From: a virus
Direction: 5' to 3' (one strand)
Virus record (IMG/VR): IMGVR_UViG_3300030098_001019
Coordinates: 1-35,929 of that record
DNA: 35,929 nt
In this document: in pieces, positions 3,273 to 34,528 of the stretch
How the letters are laid out: every line of letters starts with the position of its first letter
Numbering within the stretch: the stretch's first letter is position 1
Position numbers and translations under genes: made by a program
Notes under the pieces: generated by a model
Database searches by the model: none
What the model saw: the letters and a program-made list of their open reading frames with translations, nothing else
Told to the model about the DNA's origin: nothing

Positions 3273-4354
3273 CTCTTGAAACCAAGACCGTGCCCGAAGT
3301 GCAAGACCTGCCCATCGTCGATGGAGCATGGGATGGCGATGCAGCAAGAGAGCGATTGCGTGACTGGGCAACAGATGGCGACACTGTTGACTGGAGCAAG
3401 TACGCATTGGGCTTTGCTTACTTCGATCAATCAAACCCGGAGGTCTTCGGGTCATACAAGTTGCCCCATCACGATGTCAAGGATGGGGAGTTGGTAACAA
3501 GCAAGCAAGGTGTCTTTGCTGCGATGGGTGCGCTCCTTGGAGCGAGAGGTGGAGTAGACATGCCAACAGATGAGAAGGTTGAAGCGTACAACCACTTGGC
3601 GGATCACTACGAGCAGATGGGCGACGAGGCTCCAGAGATGGACGGGTACGGCGACTATGACGATGACAAGAAAGAGGTGAAGGCGTACTCGACTACTGTT
3701 GAGATGAAAGCCGACGAACCTCGCACTGTCATCGCAAAGATCAGCACAACGTCAGTCGACCGAGATGGCGATGTCGTCTTGCCGAGTGGATTGAAGTTGC
3801 AGGAGTATCGCAAGAACCCCGTGGTGCTTCTCAATCACAACAACGGCTCACTGCCTATTGGCAAAGCATTGAAGGTCGAACGTACTAGCGATGCAGTTAT
3901 CGCTAAGGTGCAGTTTGCAGAACGACCAAAAGAACATCCTGTAACTGCAGAGTGGATACCGGACACTGTCTACTCATTGTTCAAGCAAGGCATACTGCGT
4001 GCCTTCTCGGTTGGTTTCGTCCCGCTCGATATGCGAGATGCCACCGACAAGGATCGCAAGAAGTACGGCGACTACGCTCGTCGTGTCATAACGCAATGGA
4101 ACCTGCTCGAGTTTAGCGTCGTGCCAGTACCGGCTAACCAAGACGCGCTCGTGACGCAGGTTGCTAAGTCGTCGAGTTTCTTGAGGGAGGCATGGTGCCT
4201 TCCAACAACCAAACAGAAATTGGTTGTAGCTCGACCGGCTGTATTCAAGATCGGTGACTCTACAACGACGCGAGACGTGCGGCCGCTTATCGTGGGCCGG
4301 CAAGAAGCAAGTACGTTCGGTTGCCACACTAACTCTGGAGGATCAGAGTCATGA
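3269..4354 (+). CDS. HK97-type prohead maturation protease with extra N-terminal domain
   Basis: This serine protease cleaves the capsid delta-domain or scaffold during head maturation. The herpesvirus-assemblin/HK97 fold (peptidase U35) spans roughly residues 140-300: STTSVDRDGDVV, then the catalytic His near residue 190 in LLNHN, the catalytic Ser near 247 in AFSVGF, and EFSVVPVPAN. Residues about 15-125 form an additional domain with YKLPHHDV and GARGGVD, which I have seen N-terminal to proteases of this type; its role is unknown to me. The C-terminus beyond about residue 300 is a low-complexity extension. The gene ends in an ATGA overlap with the major capsid gene, the classical portal-protease-capsid order. 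Confidence 0.9.
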   Translation: MTLETKTVPEVQDLPIVDGAWDGDAARERLRDWATDGDTVDWSKYALGFAYFDQSNPEVFGSYKLPHHDVKDGELVTSKQGVFAAMGALLGARGGVDMPTDEKVEAYNHLADHYEQMGDEAPEMDGYGDYDDDKKEVKAYSTTVEMKADEPRTVIAKISTTSVDRDGDVVLPSGLKLQEYRKNPVVLLNHNNGSLPIGKALKVERTSDAVIAKVQFAERPKEHPVTAEWIPDTVYSLFKQGILRAFSVGFVPLDMRDATDKDRKKYGDYARRVITQWNLLEFSVVPVPANQDALVTQVAKSSSFLREAWCLPTTKQKLVVARPAVFKIGDSTTTRDVRPLIVGRQEASTFGCHTNSGGSES

Positions 4355-5688
4355 CTTGGGAAACCCTTGTCAAGCATCTGCGTTCTGAAGGTTACGAAGG
4401 CGAAGAAACGCTCGAGGCTGTTGCAAAGCATCTCGACGATCAAGGCCTCGATACTGAGAACATCGCAGACGCAGAAGGCAACGAAGTTGCCATCAAGACG
4501 TTGTGGGACGGGCGTGCCCGTGACCGCATGGACATCGGCTCAACGCAGTTGGCTGAAGAAAACGCATCGCTTCGTGAGCAACTCGCTTCGAAGGAAGTAG
4601 AGGACGAACTCGTGGGACGCAAGACCGCAGTAGTCAAGAACGTGCGTGATCGTTCTGAGGACGACACGACCAACGGCTTTAGTGGCATTGGTGAGTTCGC
4701 AAAGGCAGTACGCAACGCTTCAATGCGCGGCGGCTCTGTCGATGACCGACTCAACAAGGCAACGCTCAGTTCTTATGCGAACGAAGGAGTCGGCACAGAC
4801 GGCGGCTACTTGGTTCCGCAAGAATACGCTGACAAGATCTACGAGAACGTCTGGGCGGAAGATGGTCTCTTGACCATGACCGACCAACTCACGATTGCTC
4901 GTAACTCAATGACCTTCGTCCGCGACGAAACTACTCCTTGGGGTAGTGCGGGTGTTCAGACGTATTGGACCGAAGAAGCGACTGCGATCACGCAAAGCAA
5001 GCCTCAACTCAAGTACGACACGATGCGTCTCAGCAAGTTGGCTGCGCTTGTGCCTTGCTCCGATGAGTTGCTTAGCGATGCCAATGCAGTCGAGTCGTTG
5101 ATTGCAAGCCGTGCTGGTGCAGCACTTCGGTACGAGATTGAAGACACGATTCTTCACGGTACTGGTGCGGGTCAGCCACTGGGCATTGTGAACGCGGGAT
5201 GCACGATTGAGCAGGCCAAGAAGTCTGGTCAGTCCGCAGACACCATCGTCATCGAGAACATTCTCAACATGTACTCTCGAATGATGCACCGCCCCGGCGG
5301 CGCGCCCGTGTGGATTACCAACGCAGATTGCCTGCCTCAGTTGTTCAACCTTTCGATGAACAACAACCCGGTGTACCTGCCCAACATGCAGTTGGCAGAT
5401 GCGCCTTACGGCACACTGTTCGGTCGTCCGCTCATCATCAGTCAGCACGCCAACACGCTTGGCGACAAGGGCGACTTCATGTTCGCAGACCTGTCTCAGT
5501 ACGTCACCGTGCTGAAGGCTGGCGGCGTGCAGGCTGCTCGTTCCATGCACCTGTGGTTCGACCAAGAGGTCGAGGCGTTCCGCTTCAGCATGCGCATCGC
5601 AGGTCAGCCTTGGATGGCATCTGCTGTCGATTCAGACAACAGTGCTGCTGACGTTTCACCATTCGTCGTGCTCGCAGAGCGCGCCTGA
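4351..5688 (+). CDS. Major capsid protein (HK97 fold)
   Basis: The 445-residue product builds the icosahedral shell. Residues about 1-135 are charged and partly coiled-coil (QLAEENASLREQLASKE), consistent with a delta/scaffolding domain removed by the protease encoded just upstream. The HK97 core begins near residue 140 at GTDGGYLVPQEYADKIYE. It continues through an E-loop-like segment rich in Thr and Trp, LVPCSDELLSD, the GTGAGQPLGI motif (spine helix/P-domain region) and a C-terminal A-domain ending FRFSMRIAGQPW. A strong Shine-Dalgarno (GGAGG at about 4336) precedes the ATG, which overlaps the protease stop. Confidence 0.95.
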   Translation: MTWETLVKHLRSEGYEGEETLEAVAKHLDDQGLDTENIADAEGNEVAIKTLWDGRARDRMDIGSTQLAEENASLREQLASKEVEDELVGRKTAVVKNVRDRSEDDTTNGFSGIGEFAKAVRNASMRGGSVDDRLNKATLSSYANEGVGTDGGYLVPQEYADKIYENVWAEDGLLTMTDQLTIARNSMTFVRDETTPWGSAGVQTYWTEEATAITQSKPQLKYDTMRLSKLAALVPCSDELLSDANAVESLIASRAGAALRYEIEDTILHGTGAGQPLGIVNAGCTIEQAKKSGQSADTIVIENILNMYSRMMHRPGGAPVWITNADCLPQLFNLSMNNNPVYLPNMQLADAPYGTLFGRPLIISQHANTLGDKGDFMFADLSQYVTVLKAGGVQAARSMHLWFDQEVEAFRFSMRIAGQPWMASAVDSDNSAADVSPFVVLAERA

Positions 5689-6240: not shown

Positions 6241-7398
6241 ATGGCACTTACAAGTTCGCAACTTTCAGACTTGGTCGCAAAGACGAAGCAGTACCTGCGA
6301 GTAACAGATGACGATGCTTCGTTGCTGTCTGACGCATTCACTGTCTACCACGATGAAAGCGACAGTGGCACTGCAGCAACTGTTGGAGTATCCGGGTCAA
6401 CACTCACTTTGATTGTTACCGGTGGAGCCAATGCGGGAACGTACACCGTTGACTTGTCCGCTGCTGCTTATGACACCATGACTGAAGTGGTTGATCGCAT
6501 CAACGCTTTGGACAAGGGGTTCGTTGCAGACTTGGTTGGCGAAGCAGATGCGTTGAGCGCAACACTGCGGCCAATGAACACCGTGTCTTGCTTTGGGTTC
6601 GGCAACATGCAGACCGCCACTCACACGGACAACTCGACTATTGAGTTGATCGTGCAAGAATGCTTCGATGCAGTCGAGAACGCTTGCGGTCGTCAGTTCT
6701 TTTCCGCGACTTATGACGAGCGGATCTTCACCAACGGTCAGCGAACCCTCATGCTTGACCAACCGGACGTTCAGCGAGTCACGTTTCTTGGGCTGGACAC
6801 CTACGATGCCTTTCGACTTTCGTACTCCGGTTCCGCATCGACTGCGACTGTTGAAGTAACGGACACGATGCTTAGGCTTGTCGAACGTACAGGCAACACT
6901 GACACCGATACCACCTACACCTTTAGCAGTTCTGACTTCGACACCAATGGCGAATTGGTTACAACGATTGACGCGCTGTCTGGTTGGTCCGCGACGTTGC
7001 TCAAAGATGGCCCCAGCAAGTTCTTGATTCGTCGGCCTGCGATGGCAGTCAAGACCGTCTTGGGCACTCAAGACTTTACTTGCGAAGCATGGGAGCAAAC
7101 CGACCAAGACTACGATCTCGACTATGAGGCCGGCGTGGTGAGTTTGACTTGCAAGGCCCCTTATGGGATTGCCCGTGTGATCTATGTTGCGGGGCTTGAC
7201 ACTTTGCCAACTCCGGTTGAACGCGAAGTGCTGCGACTTACCAAAGCATCCTACGAGATGCTGTCAATGAACACCACGCTCTCAAGGATGAAGTTGGGGG
7301 ACTACGAGATCGGGATGACTAGCATTAGCGTTCGCAATGCGTTGGACGCTTTTGAAGTTGCACAGCGATTGACTAGGTACATGCGTTTCTTGCCATGA
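6241..7398 (+). CDS. Head-tail connector (gp6-like adaptor) with a large N-terminal insertion
   Basis: The 385-residue product would form the ring under the portal. The recognisable part starts near residue 135: IVQECFDAVENACGRQF, YDERIF, then LMLDQPDVQRVTFLG, the usual helix-beta pattern of gp6/gp15-type connectors, and it ends with helices containing EREVLRLTKASYEML. Connectors of this family are commonly 100-200 residues. Here a Thr/Ser/Gly-rich beta stretch (residues about 30-110) and another within 190-290 are inserted. ATG 6241 is chosen over the in-frame GTG at 6229 because GGGGAT sits at the right distance upstream. It overlaps head closure by ATGA (7395-7398). Confidence 0.75.
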   Translation: MALTSSQLSDLVAKTKQYLRVTDDDASLLSDAFTVYHDESDSGTAATVGVSGSTLTLIVTGGANAGTYTVDLSAAAYDTMTEVVDRINALDKGFVADLVGEADALSATLRPMNTVSCFGFGNMQTATHTDNSTIELIVQECFDAVENACGRQFFSATYDERIFTNGQRTLMLDQPDVQRVTFLGLDTYDAFRLSYSGSASTATVEVTDTMLRLVERTGNTDTDTTYTFSSSDFDTNGELVTTIDALSGWSATLLKDGPSKFLIRRPAMAVKTVLGTQDFTCEAWEQTDQDYDLDYEAGVVSLTCKAPYGIARVIYVAGLDTLPTPVEREVLRLTKASYEMLSMNTTLSRMKLGDYEIGMTSISVRNALDAFEVAQRLTRYMRFLP

Positions 7399-9182: not shown

Positions 9183-9500
9183 ATGGCAGACAACAAGGCA
9201 CGCAAGGTCAAGGCTTCTTTGGGAGAGGCCCGCGAATCGGAAACGGCTAGCGGGACTTCTTCCAAAGAAACCATTGTGATGGTGAGATACACTCGCACTT
9301 CACAAACCAACAAGGATGGTGGTTGGGTACTTGAGGTATCAGGTACTGCGACTGTCAATGGCAAAGATCGTGAGTTGAAGTTGAGCAAGATGTCTCACGA
9401 CAACTACGAATCACTTACTCAATCTGTCTACGCTTGGGTGAAGACAGAAAACCTACAGTCACCTATCAAGGTGTCTTTCAAAAAGTCAGTCGCTGGCTAG
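9183..9500 (+). CDS. Hypothetical tail-module protein
   Basis: The 105-residue product has a Shine-Dalgarno (AAGGAG) upstream. The N-terminus is charged and Ala/Lys/Glu-rich (residues 1-30), followed by beta-rich stretches (ETIVMVRYTRTSQ, GGWVLEVSGTATVNG). No membrane segment. I do not recognise the family. Between the tube protein and the chaperones it could be a tube-associated or assembly protein. Confidence 0.65.
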   Translation: MADNKARKVKASLGEARESETASGTSSKETIVMVRYTRTSQTNKDGGWVLEVSGTATVNGKDRELKLSKMSHDNYESLTQSVYAWVKTENLQSPIKVSFKKSVAG

Positions 9501-24373: not shown

Positions 24374-24802
24374 TCAGTAGCCTTTCGTCTGCGACTCGTA
24401 AGTCATCGGATCGTCGTCTGCAGGTTCATCTGGCATAGGTGGTTCGTATGCTGGATGCTTGGCACCTAGATGCTCAGGTTGAATTGCACTTACCTGCACT
24501 TGCCTCAGCCCCGTAGAGAATCTTTCTTCGACACCTTGCAGGAATGAAAGCAAGCAGTTGTAGTAGTCCCAACGCATCGGCACATGCTCAAGTCGCATGT
24601 CGCCATCAACGCTAATGATAACTGCAGGTCCGTGAATCAAGAACAGTTGCCTTTTGCTAGGAGGCGTGTTGTAAGGATCGGGTGTGTCGGGAGGATAGAT
24701 TTCTTCGTGCTCAATGCAGTAGTACTGCACATGGGCGAAGTCGCCGGGTTGCATCTCAATGGGTTTGGGAGATTGGCGGCTGAATCGGTCATGTAAGTTC
24801 AT
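24374..24802 (-). CDS. Hypothetical protein, last gene of the leftward operon
   Basis: The 142-residue product has no known family. The first half has beta/aromatic character (FAHVQYYCIEHEEIYPP, RQLFLIHGPAVIISVDG); the C-terminus (from about residue 110) is Pro, Asp and Glu rich and probably disordered. ATG at 24802 is preferred, with GGAGAG upstream; the longer open frame runs through an inverted repeat. It ends 14 bp before the shared terminator. Confidence 0.6.
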   Translation of the reverse strand: MNLHDRFSRQSPKPIEMQPGDFAHVQYYCIEHEEIYPPDTPDPYNTPPSKRQLFLIHGPAVIISVDGDMRLEHVPMRWDYYNCLLSFLQGVEERFSTGLRQVQVSAIQPEHLGAKHPAYEPPMPDEPADDDPMTYESQTKGY

Positions 24803-24818
24803 TGGTGTCTCTCCGGGT

Positions 24819-24862
24819 AAGGGCCGTGAGCATTCGCAACGAGCGAGATGCCCACGGCCCTT
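24819..24862 (-). other. Intergenic hairpin in the leftward operon
   Basis: AAGGGCCGTG (24819-24828) is perfectly complementary to CACGGCCCTT (24853-24862), and a second imperfect stem GCATTCGC / GCGAGATGC lies inside. It occupies the 76-bp spacer between the XRE regulator gene and the last gene of the leftward operon and reads the same from either strand. No T run follows on the minus strand. Confidence 0.65.
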
Positions 24863-24878
24863 TGCGCGGATCTTGGAG

Positions 24879-25094
24879 TCAAGTCGCTTGTTGCGTCTCG
24901 ACAAGTGTTGATAGGTACTGATGCATCTTGGATGCGTTCAGTGTTCCAGTGTCGTGAGATTGAAGAACCAAGTAACGGCGAACGGTGTCATACCCAACGC
25001 CGCTACCTTGAGCCAAGGCGTAAGTCGTGATGCCTGACTCTTGGAACATTCTGAGTATCTCGGCTTTGATCTCGTTGGCTTGTTGTTCAGTCAT
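24879..25094 (-). CDS. XRE-family helix-turn-helix regulator
   Basis: The 71-residue product has a single HTH: a helix IKAEILRMFQES, then GITTYALAQGSGVGYDTVRR, the two-helix recognition unit of Cro/CI-like proteins, and a final helix (NASKMHQYLSTL). It consists of the DNA-binding domain alone. ATG 25094 overlaps the stop of the upstream small membrane gene (TGATG on the minus strand) and no separate ribosome site is seen, so it depends on translation of that gene. It could act on the palindromes at 19758, 28178 or 28200. Confidence 0.7.
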   Translation of the reverse strand: MTEQQANEIKAEILRMFQESGITTYALAQGSGVGYDTVRRYLVLQSHDTGTLNASKMHQYLSTLVETQQAT

Positions 25095-25210
25095 CAGTCT
25101 GAACGTCGCCAACCGGGATGCTTCTTGTCCATGTGATCTTCCATCAAAGGAAGGATCGCACCAAAGAAACCGAACAGTAACAAGAAGCCAAGGATGAAGT
25201 AACCAATCAT
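25094..25210 (-). CDS. 38-residue single-pass membrane protein
   Basis: This ORF reads MIGYFILGFLLLFGFFGA, then a short ILPLMED and a charged end KKHPGWRRSD. Residues 3-21 are a clear transmembrane helix with a basic C-terminal tail. AAAGG lies at good spacing before the ATG, and the stop overlaps the start of the XRE regulator gene, so translation of the two is coupled. Its function is unknown; such peptides in early operons may alter host membranes or act as small regulators or superinfection factors. Confidence 0.65.
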   Translation of the reverse strand: MIGYFILGFLLLFGFFGAILPLMEDHMDKKHPGWRRSD

Positions 25211-25232
25211 GGGGTTGCCTTTCGTCTGACAA

Positions 25233-26264
25233 TCAGACAAGTGCGAGTGCAGCCTTGGTGACTGCGCCCTTCAGGTTGTTGGATGTACCGAACAGGTTGG
25301 AGTGCCCGCGGGCTTCGTTTGCATTGCGATGGGACGAAGTGTTGCGAGCCGTTCGGGTGTGGTCAGACCACTCGGTGATTGCGTTGAGTGCCGCCCAAGC
25401 AGAACCTTCGCAGCCGTTGTTAGTGCAGGTGGGGCTTTCAAAGTTCTCAAGCCATGCGCCAACAGTTGTGAGTGCCTTGCGTCGTCGCTTGATAGCGGCT
25501 TTGCTTTCATCGTGGGCACTTGGGATGGGTTCAAACTCCGACTGGTAAACGTCAACGAAGAACTCTTGCAGTTCTGCAGTCGTCAACTTTTTCTTGTAGA
25601 GCGCGTCCGCAGCCTCGACGAACTTTTCACGTTGACCAGACACTGCCTTGAACAAGTCACGGATCTTGTCGATCTGTTCTTGAATGCTAGGCGTGTGCCG
25701 GAACCTGAACAAGCGACCGTTGCGGCTTGCTTGGAATTGAGCCATCCGCTGAGTGTTAGCACACTCAATGCGGTAGAGGTGTCCCAATGCTTCAAGGCTT
25801 TGGAAACCATCGTGACCGTTCACAAGCGAGAAGAACGTATCGACCGGGTCCTTGCCGCCGACCATCATGGTGTCTGTGCGGCAGCAAAGGAAAGTCGTAC
25901 GCCCATTGCGGAACGAACCTGCTGACTCAACTCGCGGCATTGCTCCATCGTCCGCAGCGGCGTAAGCAAGTTCTGCCAACTGCGAGTTCTGGACGATGCT
26001 ATAGGAGTCGCTCACAATCCCAAGGACTTCCTTGGTGTCACTGCGGACGTTCGCAATGTGACTCTCTGCAGGCACTCGCATCGGGGGCATGCCTTTCGGT
26101 TCGATCACCGCATACAGGGGAGCGGGAATGACTTCCCAGTCGAGTCCTGCAATCTGCATTGCACCTTCGATGGTCGGTGCTTGCTCAACTACTGTCCCAA
26201 GGCTATGCCAAGCCTTGCGACCTGTGACCATGAGGTTGTCGTGTTCGTGAATCTCGTGTGCCAT
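25233..26264 (-). CDS. DUF932 / phage-plasmid-like protein
   Basis: The 343-residue product resembles the DUF932 (TIGR03299) family found on phages and plasmids. Diagnostic parts are the N-terminal AWHSLGTVVEQAPT, EVLGIVSDSYSIVQNSQL, and NGHDGFQSLEA with IECANTQRMA. The family function is not established; members are often early-expressed and abundant. ATG 26264 has AAAGGAAT upstream. Length matches the family. A perfect 10-bp hairpin lies in the spacer before it. Confidence 0.85.
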   Translation of the reverse strand: MAHEIHEHDNLMVTGRKAWHSLGTVVEQAPTIEGAMQIAGLDWEVIPAPLYAVIEPKGMPPMRVPAESHIANVRSDTKEVLGIVSDSYSIVQNSQLAELAYAAADDGAMPRVESAGSFRNGRTTFLCCRTDTMMVGGKDPVDTFFSLVNGHDGFQSLEALGHLYRIECANTQRMAQFQASRNGRLFRFRHTPSIQEQIDKIRDLFKAVSGQREKFVEAADALYKKKLTTAELQEFFVDVYQSEFEPIPSAHDESKAAIKRRRKALTTVGAWLENFESPTCTNNGCEGSAWAALNAITEWSDHTRTARNTSSHRNANEARGHSNLFGTSNNLKGAVTKAALALV

Positions 26265-26299
26265 TGGTGTTGATTCCTTTTGGGCACTGCGCAAAGACA

Positions 26300-26324
26300 C
26301 GGCTCGGCGAACACCGCCGAGCCG
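26300..26324 (-). other. Perfect 10-bp hairpin in the leftward operon
   Basis: CGGCTCGGCG (26300-26309), loop AACAC, CGCCGAGCCG (26315-26324). It lies in the 84-bp spacer between the nonapeptide-repeat gene and the DUF932 gene, 35 bp upstream of the latter's start. No U-tract on the minus strand, so processing or attenuation is likelier than strict termination. Confidence 0.7.
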
Positions 26325-26348
26325 CATCCTTGCTGGGTTGTATTGGTA

Positions 26349-27116
26349 TCAGCCGTTGTTGGCTTCGGGTGTGGGTGCTGCGTCATCGACGACAAGGTCT
26401 GTCTTCTTCAGTTTCGCCTCGGCAGTGTTCAATGCGGCCTTCAGAAAATCGATCTCGTGGATCAGTCGATCCTTGTCGTTCTCGTGGACGCGGCGAAGTT
26501 CACGGATCTCGTCACGCAAAGTGTTGCGTTCTGAGAATGCGTCCATCATTGCACCGAGCAGGCCGTCACCGAGTTCGCTTGCATTGTTCTCAGTGATCGT
26601 GTTGGCAAGTTCGATCATGTTGATGTTGTCGGCAACATCTTCAAGGTCAATCTCATCAGCAATGCTGCAGGTATCGAACTCGCTGGCGAGGTCGTGGTTG
26701 TCAATGCACTGCGCCAGAGAGTAGAAGTCGATGTTCTCCGATGCTCGCTCGATAATGTGGTCCGTGTCCATGTAGTCGGCAAGCGTAGACATGTCGATGT
26801 TGTTGGCTACTTCTCCGCAGCAGATGTTCTCTGCGACTTCGCAAACGTCCATGTAGTCTGCAACGTCCGAGACGCAGACATGCTCGGCAACATCTTCGGC
26901 CTTGACATCCTTGGCAACTTCCTTCGCCATGCAACTGATATCGCCCACTGCATCCATCGCTGCCTGTTGTGCTGCTGCGATCATCTGCGGGCATTCGGAG
27001 TCGTGCGCCTTCTCGATCTTGCCAATGCGCTGCTCGTGATTCTCCAGCACTGCCTGTGCAGTGTTGAAGGTATCGCTGATGACGTTGACGGGAACGGTGT
27101 TGGTGTTGGGTTCCAT
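26349..27116 (-). CDS. Nonapeptide-repeat protein with C-terminal coiled coil
   Basis: The 255-residue product is acidic and repetitive. Residues about 75-178 are ten to eleven degenerate nine-residue units of the form (D/E/S)-(V/L/I)-A-x-x-(I/M/F)-D-x-x, for example DVADYMDVC, EVANNIDMS, DLASEFDTC, SIADEIDLE, DVADNINMI, with a single four-residue slip near 120-132. Nine-residue periodicity with small/hydrophobic positions suggests a regular solenoid or helical ladder. Residues about 190-245 (ERNTLRDEIRELRRVHEND and on) form a coiled coil. A very strong ribosome site (AGGAGG) precedes ATG 27116, so it is probably made in quantity. I do not recognise the family. Confidence 0.65.
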   Translation of the reverse strand: MEPNTNTVPVNVISDTFNTAQAVLENHEQRIGKIEKAHDSECPQMIAAAQQAAMDAVGDISCMAKEVAKDVKAEDVAEHVCVSDVADYMDVCEVAENICCGEVANNIDMSTLADYMDTDHIIERASENIDFYSLAQCIDNHDLASEFDTCSIADEIDLEDVADNINMIELANTITENNASELGDGLLGAMMDAFSERNTLRDEIRELRRVHENDKDRLIHEIDFLKAALNTAEAKLKKTDLVVDDAAPTPEANNG

Positions 27117-27243
27117 CTGGAACCTCCTATGGGTTGTGCCGCTGTGCGGCAGTTGGGTTGTGATGGCTTGTGCCATCGTGATTGAGATGCCCGCCGACCA
27201 CCTTTCAGTGGCCGACGAGTGTGGAACCTTCCCGGTTCGTTGT
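27117..27243 (-). other. 127-bp spacer with several small hairpins
   Basis: No gene. Short inverted repeats follow each other: GCCGC-TGT-GCGGC (27138-27150), GATGGC-TTGT-GCCATC (27162-27177), CCAC/GTGG (27198-27211) and GAACC-TTCCC-GGTTC (27224-27238). Individually weak, but the density matches the other spacers of this operon. The strong ribosome site of the repeat-protein gene lies at its left edge. Confidence 0.45.
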
Positions 27244-27537
27244 TCAGTACAGGACCGCTCCGATCTTCAGTGACGAGTTCTTCTTGTGCTTTGCGAGCCG
27301 GTTGTCTTGAATCAAGATCGGACGCTGCTTGGAATGTTCCCAAGTGATTCCCATCTCGTGTCCCCATGCAGCGGTGGGCAGGTCTTCATCGTCGGCCCAC
27401 ATGTAGACGCAGCAATGCTTGTTGCCAGAGGCTTCCTTGTAGTTCGCCATCGCCTCGTCATAGGTCGCTGCTGATCCCCACGCGCCGAGGCCGTAGCAGA
27501 TGAACTTGATCTTGTCGGTCTTGGTTTCTTCAGTCAT
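27244..27537 (-). CDS. Small hypothetical protein
   Basis: The 97-residue product has an N-terminal strand KIKFICYGLGAWG, a helix with TYDEAMANYKEASG, CCVYMWADDEDLP, and a basic end. No membrane segment and no family I recognise. The alternating strand-helix-strand pattern suggests a compact alpha/beta fold of about 80 residues. Its upstream region carries one of two near-identical 37-bp leader repeats. Confidence 0.6.
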   Translation of the reverse strand: MTEETKTDKIKFICYGLGAWGSAATYDEAMANYKEASGNKHCCVYMWADDEDLPTAAWGHEMGITWEHSKQRPILIQDNRLAKHKKNSSLKIGAVLY

Positions 27538-27547
27538 TGGGTTGCTT

Positions 27548-27584
27548 CTTTCTGTGGTTGTTGTTGCAGGCCACCCTGCTGTTG
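27548..27584 (-). repeat. 37-bp leader repeat, copy A (with hairpin)
   Basis: Copy A matches copy B (27858-27894) at 33 of 37 positions. It contains GCAGG-CCAC-CCTGC (27566-27579). It lies in the spacer upstream of the 97-residue gene. Confidence 0.65.
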
Positions 27585-27593
27585 GAATTGGTG

Positions 27594-27848
27594 TCAGGCG
27601 AGAGTCAGGTTCGTGCTGCGAACTTCGTCCACCAAGTCTTGTGCTTCTTTGGACACGGCTTTGATGAATCGGTTCCCGTCGAAGTTCGGGTTCTCGTCCT
27701 TGAGAAGGACAAGCAAGTGTTCAGTCAGGCTTGTGATTGCCCAAGAGGCGTGGCCGTCTTCGTCGATCATGGCGTGCTGGTTGATCTCTGCGGCACCTTG
27801 TGCCTGTCCGATGATCTTGGCGAGTTCGATGTAGTGCTTGCGAGTCAT
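27594..27848 (-). CDS. Small hypothetical protein
   Basis: The 84-residue, mainly helical, acidic product has no known family: TRKHYIELAKIIGQAQG, then a helix with TSLTEHLLVLLKDENPNFDGNRF. The pattern IGQAQG and F-x-x-x-V resembles uncharacterised small proteins of actinophages and other siphophages. ATG 27848 is chosen because the longer frame upstream runs through leader repeat B. It is followed by leader repeat A and the next small gene. Confidence 0.6.
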   Translation of the reverse strand: MTRKHYIELAKIIGQAQGAAEINQHAMIDEDGHASWAITSLTEHLLVLLKDENPNFDGNRFIKAVSKEAQDLVDEVRSTNLTLA

Positions 27849-27857
27849 AGGTCTCTG

Positions 27858-27894
27858 CTTTCTGTGGTTGGTGTTGCGGCCCACCCCGCTGTTG
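27858..27894 (-). repeat. 37-bp leader repeat, copy B (with hairpin)
   Basis: Copy B of the leader repeat. Its stem GCGG (27876-27879) / CCGC (27886-27889) keeps pairing while differing from copy A by one compensatory A-T to G-C change. It lies immediately upstream of the 84-residue gene. Confidence 0.65.
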
Positions 27895-27898
27895 TTGT

Positions 27899-28129
27899 TC
27901 AGTCGTTCCATTCAACGATGTTGAAGAAGCCTCGGGGTCCGAGGTTGTTGTCGATGTACCGATTGCAAGATGCCTTCGAGCTGTAGGTCACGACCTTCTC
28001 GCCGCAGTCGAGATGATTCAGTTCTTTCTCAGTGACCCAATCAAGGAAGATGAAAGCGCGGCCTCGGGTCTGCTCGACTCGAGTAGTGGTGTGGTATCGG
28101 CCTTGCTCGTTGGTGATTGCGTACTTCAT
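27899..28129 (-). CDS. Small hypothetical protein, first gene of the leftward operon
   Basis: The 76-residue product contains MKYAITNEQGRYH, then RAFIFLDWVTEKELNHLD and a final GFFNIVEWND; a small alpha/beta protein without known family. ATG 28129 has an excellent AAAGGAG site upstream. The frame extends further but that part lies in the structured gap. As the first gene after the long non-coding stretch it is likely the promoter-proximal gene of the leftward operon. Confidence 0.6.
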   Translation of the reverse strand: MKYAITNEQGRYHTTTRVEQTRGRAFIFLDWVTEKELNHLDCGEKVVTYSSKASCNRYIDNNLGPRGFFNIVEWND

Positions 28130-28177
28130 GGGAATGCTCCTTTCAAGAGCGTTGGGTTGGTTGGCTTGCTCATCAGT

Positions 28178-28197
28178 GCATGGCCGCCACGCCATGC
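28178..28197. promoter_or_regulatory. Inverted repeat upstream of the leftward operon (1)
   Basis: GCATGGC-CGCCAC-GCCATGC: 7-bp perfect stem with a 6-nt loop, two bases from the next inverted repeat. The tandem placement about 50 bp before the first leftward start suggests paired regulator sites or consecutive hairpins in the leader. Confidence 0.5.
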
Positions 28198-28199
28198 AG

Positions 28200-28219
28200 A
28201 CCCTTGAGTGCTCAAGGGT
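28200..28219. promoter_or_regulatory. Inverted repeat upstream of the leftward operon (2)
   Basis: ACCCTTGAG-TG-CTCAAGGGT: 9-bp perfect dyad with only two bases in the centre. As RNA the loop would be formed by opening the inner pairs; as DNA it looks like an operator for a dimeric repressor. The XRE regulator encoded at 24879 or the winged-helix protein at 29100 are candidate binders. Confidence 0.5.
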
Positions 28220-28377
28220 TTCGCTATTGCGATGTCGACTCGTTCCGCAGGCTGTGCTATGGGTACGCGGTGGCTTCGGGTCTTGTGACTCAGTTGCTGT
28301 CTACATGCCGTACCGGTCTTGTGCGGTTTGCGTGGACCCGTCTAGGTCTCACGGCTATGGCGTGCTTCTTGCATTCC

Positions 28378-28627
28378 GAATACCCAACTCGCCATGTCGA
28401 TCTCTCAGACCGGCAATCCGATCCTGCGGGTGCGACGTTGCGCTGGACTATGTCACTGGCTGTCGCGTTCGCTCACGATCATGTCTCGACTTTCTTTCTC
28501 GTGGGTCCTCGCCTTGCGGCCTTGGATGTTGCTGTCGCATCGCAACGTCTTCCTCCCACGGTACTGGCTACTGCCTCCGTGCCGAGAGCCCGGCCGACCT
28601 GTCGGCCGAGCAACGTGTTGGGTATTC
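28378..28627. ncRNA. Candidate large structured RNA (core) in the 650-bp divergent gap
   Basis: The gap 28130-28779 has no convincing gene but dense nested complementarity. An 11-bp outer helix pairs GAATACCCAAC (28378-28388) with GTTGGGTATTC (28617-28627). Inside, 28434-28442 pairs with 28541-28549 (9 bp), enclosing 28472-28478 with 28499-28505. Hairpins at 28557-28581 and 28591-28608 follow before the outer helix closes. Minus-strand loops are purine-rich and include a GCC-GCAA-GGC tetraloop (28511-28520), favouring leftward transcription as the leader of the leftward operon. Further nested helices flank it: GGATTCC (28664-28670) / GGAATCC (28724-28730) enclosing AGCGGC (28672-28677) / GCCGCT (28699-28704). 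Confidence 0.5.
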
Positions 28628-28779
28628 ACTTGTCAACGTCCGAATCATCGCACATCTGCGAATGGATTCCTAGCGGCTGCGTCAAAGCGTCGATATACGC
28701 CGCTGAGGGGCTGTGGATATCGCGGAATCCGCTCCGGCCGGCTCCGCATCGGACGCGGGGGTGGAGTAGGGTGGAGGGC

Positions 28780-29154
28780 ATGTCGATCAACTCACGACAG
28801 AAAGGCAAGCGCGCAGAACGCGAGGCAGCAGGTGTGCTAACCGACTTGCTTGGTGCGCACTTCAGACGCGCGCAACAGTACGCAGGTGGTGTGGAGTCAG
28901 CAGACATACTTGGTGGCCCACCAGAGTTGCATTGGGAAGTCAAGCATCAGGAACGGATGCAACTCTACAAGTGGCTCGACCAAGCAATCGCTGATGCAGT
29001 AGACAACTTGCCTTTGGTGTTGCATCGGCAGAACGGAAAAGAGTGGTTGCTGTCGTTGCGAGTAAGCGACATGCTTAGGTTGTGCAGTATCATCAGTGAG
29101 TGGAGTGCGACGAAGAACAACACGAACGACTCTGGCGAGCGTGGCGACTGCTAG
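28780..29154 (+). CDS. Holliday-junction-resolvase-like / RecB-type nuclease
   Basis: The 124-residue product carries the archaeal-resolvase-like PD-(D/E)XK signature: SRQKGKRAEREAAGVL with the first Glu, SADILGG with the Asp, and HWEVKHQ with the E-x-K pair, followed by a helix QLYKWLDQAIADA. Length fits the family. It would resolve branched DNA before packaging or trim recombination intermediates. ATG 28780 has GGAGGG upstream. The frame is open for 660 bp upstream, but that sequence lies in the structured gap and is not protein-like. It overlaps the winged-helix gene by 55 bp. Confidence 0.78.
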   Translation: MSINSRQKGKRAEREAAGVLTDLLGAHFRRAQQYAGGVESADILGGPPELHWEVKHQERMQLYKWLDQAIADAVDNLPLVLHRQNGKEWLLSLRVSDMLRLCSIISEWSATKNNTNDSGERGDC

Positions 29155-30600: not shown

Positions 30601-31713
30601 GTGCTCAACCCCGTACTGATCTCATACCACTACCTGCGCAAAAGCAAACCGCTCTGCTGCGTGTTCGATGAGATGCGCAAAAGGAACGTGACTGAACTCA
30701 TGGTTGATTCAGGTGCGTTCTCTGCAAAGCACATTGGAGCGGAGATAGATCTCAACACCTACAACGACTTTGCTCAAAGGTGTGAAGATACTGGGCCGGT
30801 GTGGAATTGGGTAATGCTCGATGTCATCGGAGACTCAGATCAGACACTCAAGAACTTAGACATCACAGTTAGCAGAGGCCTTCAACCAATGCCTGTGCTG
30901 ACTGCTGACATGAGTTTGGACAGAGCAAAGGACTTGTGCGACATCAATCGAAGCATGTGCGTTGCTGGAGGCACTGACAGGTATCCCGGTTGGAAGCCAA
31001 CGCTCATGCGAAGATACTGGGATGCTTACGAAGCAACCGATAGAAAAGGTCTGTTGCATGGCCTTGGGTTCGTCAACTACCCGGAGTCGTTTCAGTGCCC
31101 ATTGACATCGTGCGACTCGACTGCCTTCATCAACGGCCAGCGGTTTGGTTCGGTTCACACCTACAACGCTAGTCGTGGGTGGGGCAGCGCGTATCAGTGG
31201 TCCGAGGTTGTAAAGAAAGGCAGTGCCGGGTTGCCAATCGAACTTGCTGAGTTCGTCAAGCGATGCGGAGTTCGTGACTTCTCGGACAGGCAATACATCA
31301 TGGCTCCGGGCAAAGACAAGGGCGGGTCAGGTGGTGCGTTCAATACTCTGTCTTGCACTTGGGCGTACATGATGACTGCCCAAGCCGCTCGGCGGCACGG
31401 CTTGCTGATATTCTTGGCCGCTTCCAATGCGGTGCCTTTGGTGTCGATGGCTGTGCTGAGTAAGTTAGGTGCGACCGATGGTTCGTTCTTCCCGTATGAG
31501 GAATGCCAAAAGGAAGTCGCAAGGTTGAGTTCTGCTTTGAAGCGCGACGCAAAGTCGGGCGCGGTTGCACTCGTTGATTGTATGGAGGAAGGTTGTGCGC
31601 GCATTAGTAATCGTCACCTTGCAAGTAGAGGGGTTCCACCAGTGGCCACAAGCCTGCGACCCAGTCGAGTTCTTGGCTACCAACCACAGGCATCTGTTCC
31701 ACATTCGCGGTGA
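30601..31713 (+). CDS. dpdA: DpdA-like DNA deazaguanine transglycosylase (TGT superfamily)
   Basis: The 370-residue product belongs to the tRNA-guanine transglycosylase superfamily and resembles phage DpdA, which exchanges guanine in DNA for a 7-deazaguanine. Motifs are VDSGAF with Asp36 (equivalent to the substrate-binding Asp of Tgt), VMLDVIGD with Asp74, LHGLGF near 152-157 and SCDSTAF with Asp172, which aligns by position with the Tgt nucleophile. It lacks the tRNA-binding PUA domain. GTG start two bases after the ParB-like stop. Downstream queD, queE and folE supply the base, which distinguishes it from a tRNA enzyme. Its last 119 bp overlap the next gene. Confidence 0.85.
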   Translation: MLNPVLISYHYLRKSKPLCCVFDEMRKRNVTELMVDSGAFSAKHIGAEIDLNTYNDFAQRCEDTGPVWNWVMLDVIGDSDQTLKNLDITVSRGLQPMPVLTADMSLDRAKDLCDINRSMCVAGGTDRYPGWKPTLMRRYWDAYEATDRKGLLHGLGFVNYPESFQCPLTSCDSTAFINGQRFGSVHTYNASRGWGSAYQWSEVVKKGSAGLPIELAEFVKRCGVRDFSDRQYIMAPGKDKGGSGGAFNTLSCTWAYMMTAQAARRHGLLIFLAASNAVPLVSMAVLSKLGATDGSFFPYEECQKEVARLSSALKRDAKSGAVALVDCMEEGCARISNRHLASRGVPPVATSLRPSRVLGYQPQASVPHSR

Positions 31714-33436: not shown

Positions 33437-33864
33437 AGATCGAAAAGAAGTACCACTTCTACGCTGCTCACAGAAATCAGAACTTGACTGGTAAGTGCAG
33501 CAGCCTGCACGGGCACCGATACGGAGTTACCGTAGTCATCGAGGCTCCAAGGACTCGTGCGGGTGTCACCATGTTGTTCGCAGACATCGACATCAAGGCA
33601 GGTTCAGTGTTGCAGGCGTATGACCACGCGGCGATCATCGACAGAAGGGACGAGGTGTGGTCAGTGATAATGAAGCAGACTGACCATGAAGGCATGCCAA
33701 TGCGATGCGTGGTACTCGATTGTGAGTCATCGGCGGAGAACTTGGCAGGCGTGTTGTTCGATGAGATGCTGGAGGCGGGCTTGCCAATAGTGGAGTTGCG
33801 ATTGCAAGAAACCGACTCTGCAACAGTGATCTACACCTTGGAGGATCGCAATGAGCAAGAGTGA
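33433..33864 (+). CDS. queD: 6-carboxy-5,6,7,8-tetrahydropterin synthase QueD
   Basis: The 143-residue product converts 7,8-dihydroneopterin triphosphate (made by FolE) to 6-carboxytetrahydropterin. The zinc ligands are His13, His26 and His28 (AAHRN and CSSLHGH), the catalytic Cys is Cys22, and the Asp-His pair is Asp64-His65 in AYDHAAII. Glu126 in LQETDSA fits the substrate-anchoring Glu. All key residues of the T-fold enzyme are present. ATG 33433 overlaps the glycosyltransferase stop (ATGA); an ATG 15 bases earlier is in frame but less likely. It overlaps queE by 14 bp. Confidence 0.92.
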   Translation: MKIEKKYHFYAAHRNQNLTGKCSSLHGHRYGVTVVIEAPRTRAGVTMLFADIDIKAGSVLQAYDHAAIIDRRDEVWSVIMKQTDHEGMPMRCVVLDCESSAENLAGVLFDEMLEAGLPIVELRLQETDSATVIYTLEDRNEQE

Positions 33865-34528
33865 TAAGAACTACACCGTGAATGAAGTGTTCTACTCGAT
33901 GCAAGGTGAAGGCGTTCGTGCAGGAACGATGAACGTCTTTCTCCGATTCACTGGTTGCAACTTGCAGTGTTCTGAAGAAGCAGGCCCCAAGAGCCCCGGC
34001 GGGTTTGATTGCGACACCGAGTTCACTTCGGGTAGACGCATGAGTGCGGCACAGGTGATTGACTTCTGCGACGAGACAATGGTTGCAGGTGGGTTCAAAG
34101 AATCGAAGCACGGCAACCAAAAGTCAGTGATCTTCACCGGAGGCGAGCCGGCACTGCAACTTGACCCATCGTTAGTGCAGGCGTTCAAGGATCGTGGTTA
34201 CTACACCTGCATTGAAACGAATGGCAGTAAGGACGTATCGGGGTTGGGGCTTGATTGGATTACCGTCTCGCCCAAAGTGGCAGAACATGCAGTGAGGCAG
34301 ATGGAAGCCGATGAAGTCAAGTACGTTCGCGGGTATGGGCAAGCGTTGCCTAAACCAACATGCAAGGCAGACCATCAACTGATCTCGCCTGCATTCGATG
34401 GGGTGACATTGCGAGTCGATGGAGTAGACCAAGATCAGAGGTCGCTTGAATGGTGCGTGGGCCTCATTCGTGAAGATCCTCGGTGGAGGTTGTCAGTGCA
34501 GTTGCACAAGGTGTGGAAAGTAAGATGA
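33851..34528 (+). CDS. queE: 7-carboxy-7-deazaguanine synthase QueE (radical SAM)
   Basis: The 225-residue product rearranges 6-carboxytetrahydropterin to 7-carboxy-7-deazaguanine. The N-terminal VNEVFYSMQGEGVRAGT is the QueE substrate-binding start. The cluster ligands are Cys36, Cys40 and Cys54, a CX3CX13C spacing instead of the radical-SAM CX3CX2C; insertions there are known among QueE enzymes. FTGGEPAL at 95-102 is the SAM-binding GGE motif, and ETNG and SPK follow as in QueE. It ends in an ATGA overlap with folE. No queC follows, so CDG may be the pathway end product in this phage. Confidence 0.92.
   Translation: MSKSDKNYTVNEVFYSMQGEGVRAGTMNVFLRFTGCNLQCSEEAGPKSPGGFDCDTEFTSGRRMSAAQVIDFCDETMVAGGFKESKHGNQKSVIFTGGEPALQLDPSLVQAFKDRGYYTCIETNGSKDVSGLGLDWITVSPKVAEHAVRQMEADEVKYVRGYGQALPKPTCKADHQLISPAFDGVTLRVDGVDQDQRSLEWCVGLIREDPRWRLSVQLHKVWKVR

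Follow-up and report, generated by a model that had tools for sequence, protein, structure and literature searches.

A type II hammerhead ribozyme ahead of a leftward phage operon and its likely role in mRNA processing

The region at 28130-28779 raises the question of whether 650 bp between a leftward operon and a divergent gene serve as a leader, as a free RNA or as a coding sequence. It lies in a window (the whole stretch of DNA analysed, IMG/VR record IMGVR_UViG_3300030098_001019, 35,929 bases) that is a tailed phage, as judged from tape measure, portal and capsid matches, and whose portal and DUF932 matches take in many phages of actinobacteria. The following features bound the region:

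28780..29154, plus strand: divergent PDDEXK / RusA-like resolvase gene (PF24608, 3.1e-10; phrog_244, 4.7e-20)
28137..28143 (borders approximate), minus strand: ribosome-binding site AAAGGAG of the first leftward gene, read from the sequence
27899..28129, minus strand: first leftward gene, 76 aa, without known family, codon score 0.419
24374..28129, minus strand: leftward gene block 3′ of the ribozyme described below, with small genes without known family and a DUF932 gene at 25233-26327

In the ORF list, the 76-aa gene starts at 28195, within the ribozyme; because of the AAAGGAG ribosome site, the start at 28129 was preferred. The leftward block is presumably a single transcript. Elsewhere in the window, plus-strand genes at 30601-31713 and 33851-34528 resemble a queuine tRNA-ribosyltransferase and QueE, respectively. 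Genes of this type occur in phages that modify their own DNA with deazaguanines.

We found that the left end of the region almost certainly holds a type II hammerhead ribozyme, which is the only Rfam match above cut-off in the whole window; no second ribozyme was found there. Its parts are as follows:

28160..28226, minus strand: type II hammerhead ribozyme (RF02276; cmscan 60.2 bits, gathering score 37, E 3.2e-10, whole model 1-66 of 66)
28200..28219, minus strand: helix III, 8 bp with a loop of 4, which would terminate the upstream cleavage product (RF02276 alignment)
28198..28199, minus strand: predicted cut, 3′ of the C in the GUC triplet, between 28199 and 28198 (alignment and known family chemistry)
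28177..28198, minus strand: helix I hairpin, 8 bp, which would become the mature mRNA 5′ end (helix count)

The alignment to RF02276 shows an intact core (CUGAUGA, GAAA and the cleavage triplet GUC). Helices I and III are closed, and helix II (2 bp) is open-ended, as type II requires. The UGGC of loop I could base-pair with a GCCA downstream of helix II, as read from the sequence, and a loop I pseudoknot of this kind is known for type II hammerheads from Perreault et al. 2011 (PMC3088659). The RNA is predicted to cleave itself between 28199 and 28198, and this predicted cut lies 69 nt upstream of the AUG at 28129. The preliminary description had noted two dyads at the left end of the region; their pairing holds, as helices III and I, while reading them as plain dyads missed the hammerhead. 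It had also favoured the minus strand, with a leader or a free RNA of the leftward operon as its candidate readings, and the hammerhead now sets this strand, in accord with a U-poor minus strand; the reading as a leader is supported.

We then examined where type II hammerheads lie relative to genes. Searching viral contigs for the ribozyme pattern gave at least 120 stretches, and a structural check kept at least 186 ribozymes in 111 sources, some of which may be related rather than independent; the window is counted twice, as itself and as its own copy L001, which was dropped from the count of downstream ORFs. Among the matches listed, 178 ribozymes have enough sequence downstream, and for 145 of them a same-strand ORF begins within 60 nt (median 22), an ORF here being defined by a Shine-Dalgarno sequence (SD) with ATG or GTG and a length of at least 40 aa, compared to 8/173 in the divergent direction and 115/925 at random positions. 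By the same measure, the window ribozyme lies 35 nt from its own ATG. On the upstream side, a first gene caller was discarded, as 76 of 185 ribozymes fell inside its ORFs; with a second, home-made caller, 17 of 186 did so and 161 were usable. Among the matches listed, a same-strand gene stops a median of 4 nt upstream of 129 of these 161 ribozymes, as is expected of a 5′-UTR processing element, and 13 of the 161 occupy divergent operon heads, where the gaps range from -23 to 606 nt. Hence, the usual place of the ribozyme is between two genes of one operon, and the window ribozyme occupies the rarer operon head. The tight spacing, with the ribozyme right before a ribosome site and usually right after the preceding stop, points to a role in trimming or insulating the 5′-UTR. 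Ribozymes flanking single genes in prophages were reported in 2011 (PMC3088659); to this, the present analysis adds the count and the spacing of the ribozymes with respect to genes.

In several viral contigs (L018, L027, L032, L055, L082 and L089), 5-10 hammerheads share a strand over a few kilobases. Among the matches listed, a DUF932-like ORF (E <= 1e-4) was present in 12 loci, one of which has no ribozyme passing the structural check. In all of the other 11 (L023, L031, L034, L036, L040, L056, L071, L079, L106, L108 and L129; six with E below 1e-80), the ORF and the ribozyme are on one strand, which is a lead towards a possible link between hammerheads and DUF932. Some of these ORFs have ribozymes on both sides.

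Arrays also occur in 11 R4-related records of Streptomyces phages (L133, L198-L207), which carry 9-13 type II hammerhead matches per genome on one strand and in one arm, counted at E <= 0.001, with some of the matches under the cut-off. They share with the window the RF02276 family and, mostly, a position right before a gene of a one-strand operon, small genes being the usual neighbours. They differ from it in copy number, the window phage having one ribozyme, and show no sequence similarity to the window outside the ribozyme. In Diane, the annotated genes agree with this placement in part. The ribozyme at 3615-3677 is flanked by an annotated stop at 3598 and a start at 3696, and that at 4422-4483 by a stop at 4418 and a start at 4501, while others, for example 1388-1452 and 6557-6626, run into annotated genes or starts. 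An alignment of L133:2502-2709 with its relatives revealed a conserved unannotated ORF of about 35 aa between two hammerheads, with an ATGAAG start in most.

Taken together, we consider it probable that 28130-28779 comprises the 5′ leader of the leftward operon and a divergent promoter region, and that the hammerhead at the 3′ end of the leader cuts the leader off. On minus-strand transcription, the ribozyme would fold where the leader ends and cleave the RNA between 28199 and 28198, leaving an mRNA that begins with a 5′-OH and the helix I hairpin ahead of the first AUG. The ribosome site would be exposed and freed from the long leader, and the translation and decay of the operon would be uncoupled from the upstream sequence, while the upstream piece, with the helix III hairpin at its end, would be a by-product or a regulatory leader. 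A 5′-OH and a 5′ hairpin slow decay that is initiated at 5′ monophosphates. RiboJ, a synthetic insulator engineered from another hammerhead, uses such a layout, with the 5′ UTR trimmed and a hairpin left ahead of the ribosome site; the proposed likeness is one of function and not of kinship.

A role of the ribozyme in mRNA processing is likely; transcription, cleavage in cells and an effect on translation or stability are inferred. The full-length RF02276 match well above the cut-off, the intact core and the 8-bp helices I and III argue for leader removal. Against it, a consensus scan for promoters found none, and in longer RNA contexts forming the helices of the ribozyme takes 6.4-7.3 kcal/mol compared with the free ensemble, in a model without tertiary contacts. 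The rule of placement drawn from the ribozyme arrays covers a ribozyme at an operon head only in part. Like the type II hammerheads described in PMC3088659, that of the window has a full-length match to the family, an intact core, a phage host and a position directly before a gene; unlike them, it occurs once, at the head of an operon and preceded by a long leader free of genes, and is not part of an intergenic array. The same source places a ribozyme 13 nt before the helicase start in the haloviruses HF1/HF2.

The part of the region upstream of the cut contains the following features:

28227..28640, minus strand: presumed long leader, 5′ of the ribozyme and poor in U (composition)
28378..28627, minus strand: folded domain closed by an 11-bp helix (sequence, minus-strand minimum-free-energy (MFE) fold and shuffles)
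28448..28540 (28540-28448), minus strand: candidate 30-aa leader ORF with a good ribosome site, GGGAGGAAG, which may be chance

These roughly 430-550 nt look non-coding. The region had been described as gene-free, and this was borne out as far as codon use and Pfam/PHROG searches of four ORFs go: gene-like codon use is absent from all frames of 28200-28780, and the four ORFs crossing the region have no Pfam or PHROG match. What remains is the 30-aa ORF and a run of 216 open codons on the plus strand; the home-made caller also placed small minus-strand ORFs in the leader, and for the window the gap was hand-set at 557 nt. It is very improbable that the plus strand encodes a protein here, be it as an extra N-terminal part of the resolvase or as a gene of its own. 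A run of open codons as long occurs in 9 of 1000 shuffles and the codon score is faintly positive at 28350-28574, but this score is just 0.08-0.12 compared to about 0.3 in most genes, stops are few on this strand because A is scarce there, and the resolvase domain begins at the ATG of its gene, which has its own ribosome site. With phage tblastn also giving no match, a hidden protein on either strand was dropped.

A second alternative takes the leader upstream of the cut as a functional large non-coding RNA, with the 11-bp-closed domain as its core and a 3′ end defined by the hammerhead (helix III hairpin and 2′,3′-cyclic phosphate). The preliminary description had reported nested long-range pairings, and these hold: 28378-28388 (GAATACCCAAC) with 28617-28627 (GTTGGGTATTC), of 11 bp, and 28434-28442 (GACGTTGCG) with 28541-28549 (CGCAACGTC), of 9 bp, are both perfect reverse complements, and the two helices are nested in the minus-strand MFE fold of 28370-28640. 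The excess of the leader pairings over chance is modest, as 4 of 60 dinucleotide-shuffled versions of the region also contain perfect inverted repeats of at least 11 bp. The excess of stability over shuffled sequence that the earlier proposal calls for varies with the choice of borders: z is -4.16 on the minus strand and -5.16 on the plus strand at 28375-28630, whose borders were hand-picked from the 11-bp helix under test, and the excess is modest for the whole 650 nt (z -1.85 minus, -2.88 plus; 20 shuffles each). The minus-strand fold of 28370-28640 has a z of -3.09, with 1 of 200 shuffles equally good, and that of 28228-28779 a z of -1.34, with 9 of 100 equally good; 150-nt windows across the region do not stand out on this strand. 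In a background of 140 unselected 256-nt windows (mean z -0.8, sd 1.44), three reach -4.16 or below. The strongest fold among these samples is at 9217-9472 on the plus strand (z -6.3), within an ORF at 9183-9500. As the opposite strand of the region folds more strongly, stability gives the minus strand no preference. The lack of a coding signal and the strong depletion of U on the minus strand of 28227-28779 (A 142, U 77, U 13.9%; z 4.4 for A vs U) also favour a large RNA, but the leftward genes are U-poor too (18.7% as a whole, 14.2% in one gene), and there is no significant step in base skew near 28640 that might mark a transcript start (79 of 500 permutations as strong).

Searches for relatives of the leader likewise speak against this alternative. 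Blastn of the leader against the phage collection found no relative, and against 197 loci it gave, besides the window's own copy, no match past the ribozyme end of the region. Searching via the 76-aa gene, a 275-aa gene and, in genome contigs, DUF932 yielded no relative of the leader; a capsid search found one 64% relative (L134, a 10,323-bp contig), which has no hammerhead match, and eleven loci of resolvase relatives have no Rfam match. Ahead of four other ribozymes at operon heads (L040, L083, L027 and L100), the long gaps without genes fold with z of -2.3, -1.36, +1.45 and -2.69, respectively, and have no blastn match to the window leader. The gap before a ribozyme in Diane, hand-set at 282, at first seemed to hold a similar RNA and was rejected, since the alignment is that of a conserved small ORF between two ribozymes. 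The suggested resemblance to GOLLD or ROOL extends to the size range and the gene-free phage setting only: these and other Rfam families were rejected for the leader, with no covariance-model match at the gathering score in the window or at E <= 5 in 27890-28900, which returned the hammerhead and two weak matches at chance level. In summary, the leader may be a functional RNA, yet we regard a large non-coding RNA upstream of the cut as unlikely, and it is equally doubtful that the region is a structured phage RNA of about 450-580 nt, freed from a shared operon transcript by a built-in hammerhead that makes its 3′ end. If this were true, one promoter would yield both a free RNA ended by the ribozyme and an mRNA trimmed by it. 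Less probable again is a regulated switch, in which the structure of the leader or the short leader peptide (28540-28448) governs the folding and cutting of the ribozyme. Control by the leader is possible because the ribozyme fold is costly in longer contexts, where flanking sequence competes with its helices, and the leader offers an ORF with a good ribosome site; but competition of that size is within reach of chance, as is the ORF, and most phage type II ribozymes among the matches listed are intergenic, without room for a leader.

Hence, we favour removal of the leader by the hammerhead as the role of this locus. What hammerheads do in prokaryotes and phages is an open question according to a 2017 review (PMC6155905), and we found no account of a hammerhead-before-operon arrangement in the open-access literature searched. 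Should the long leader have a function as well, a single ribozyme would shape an mRNA and a free RNA at once. The R4-like phages, with 9-13 copies each and annotated hosts (S. coelicolor A3(2) in the case of R4), make the role of phage hammerheads testable.
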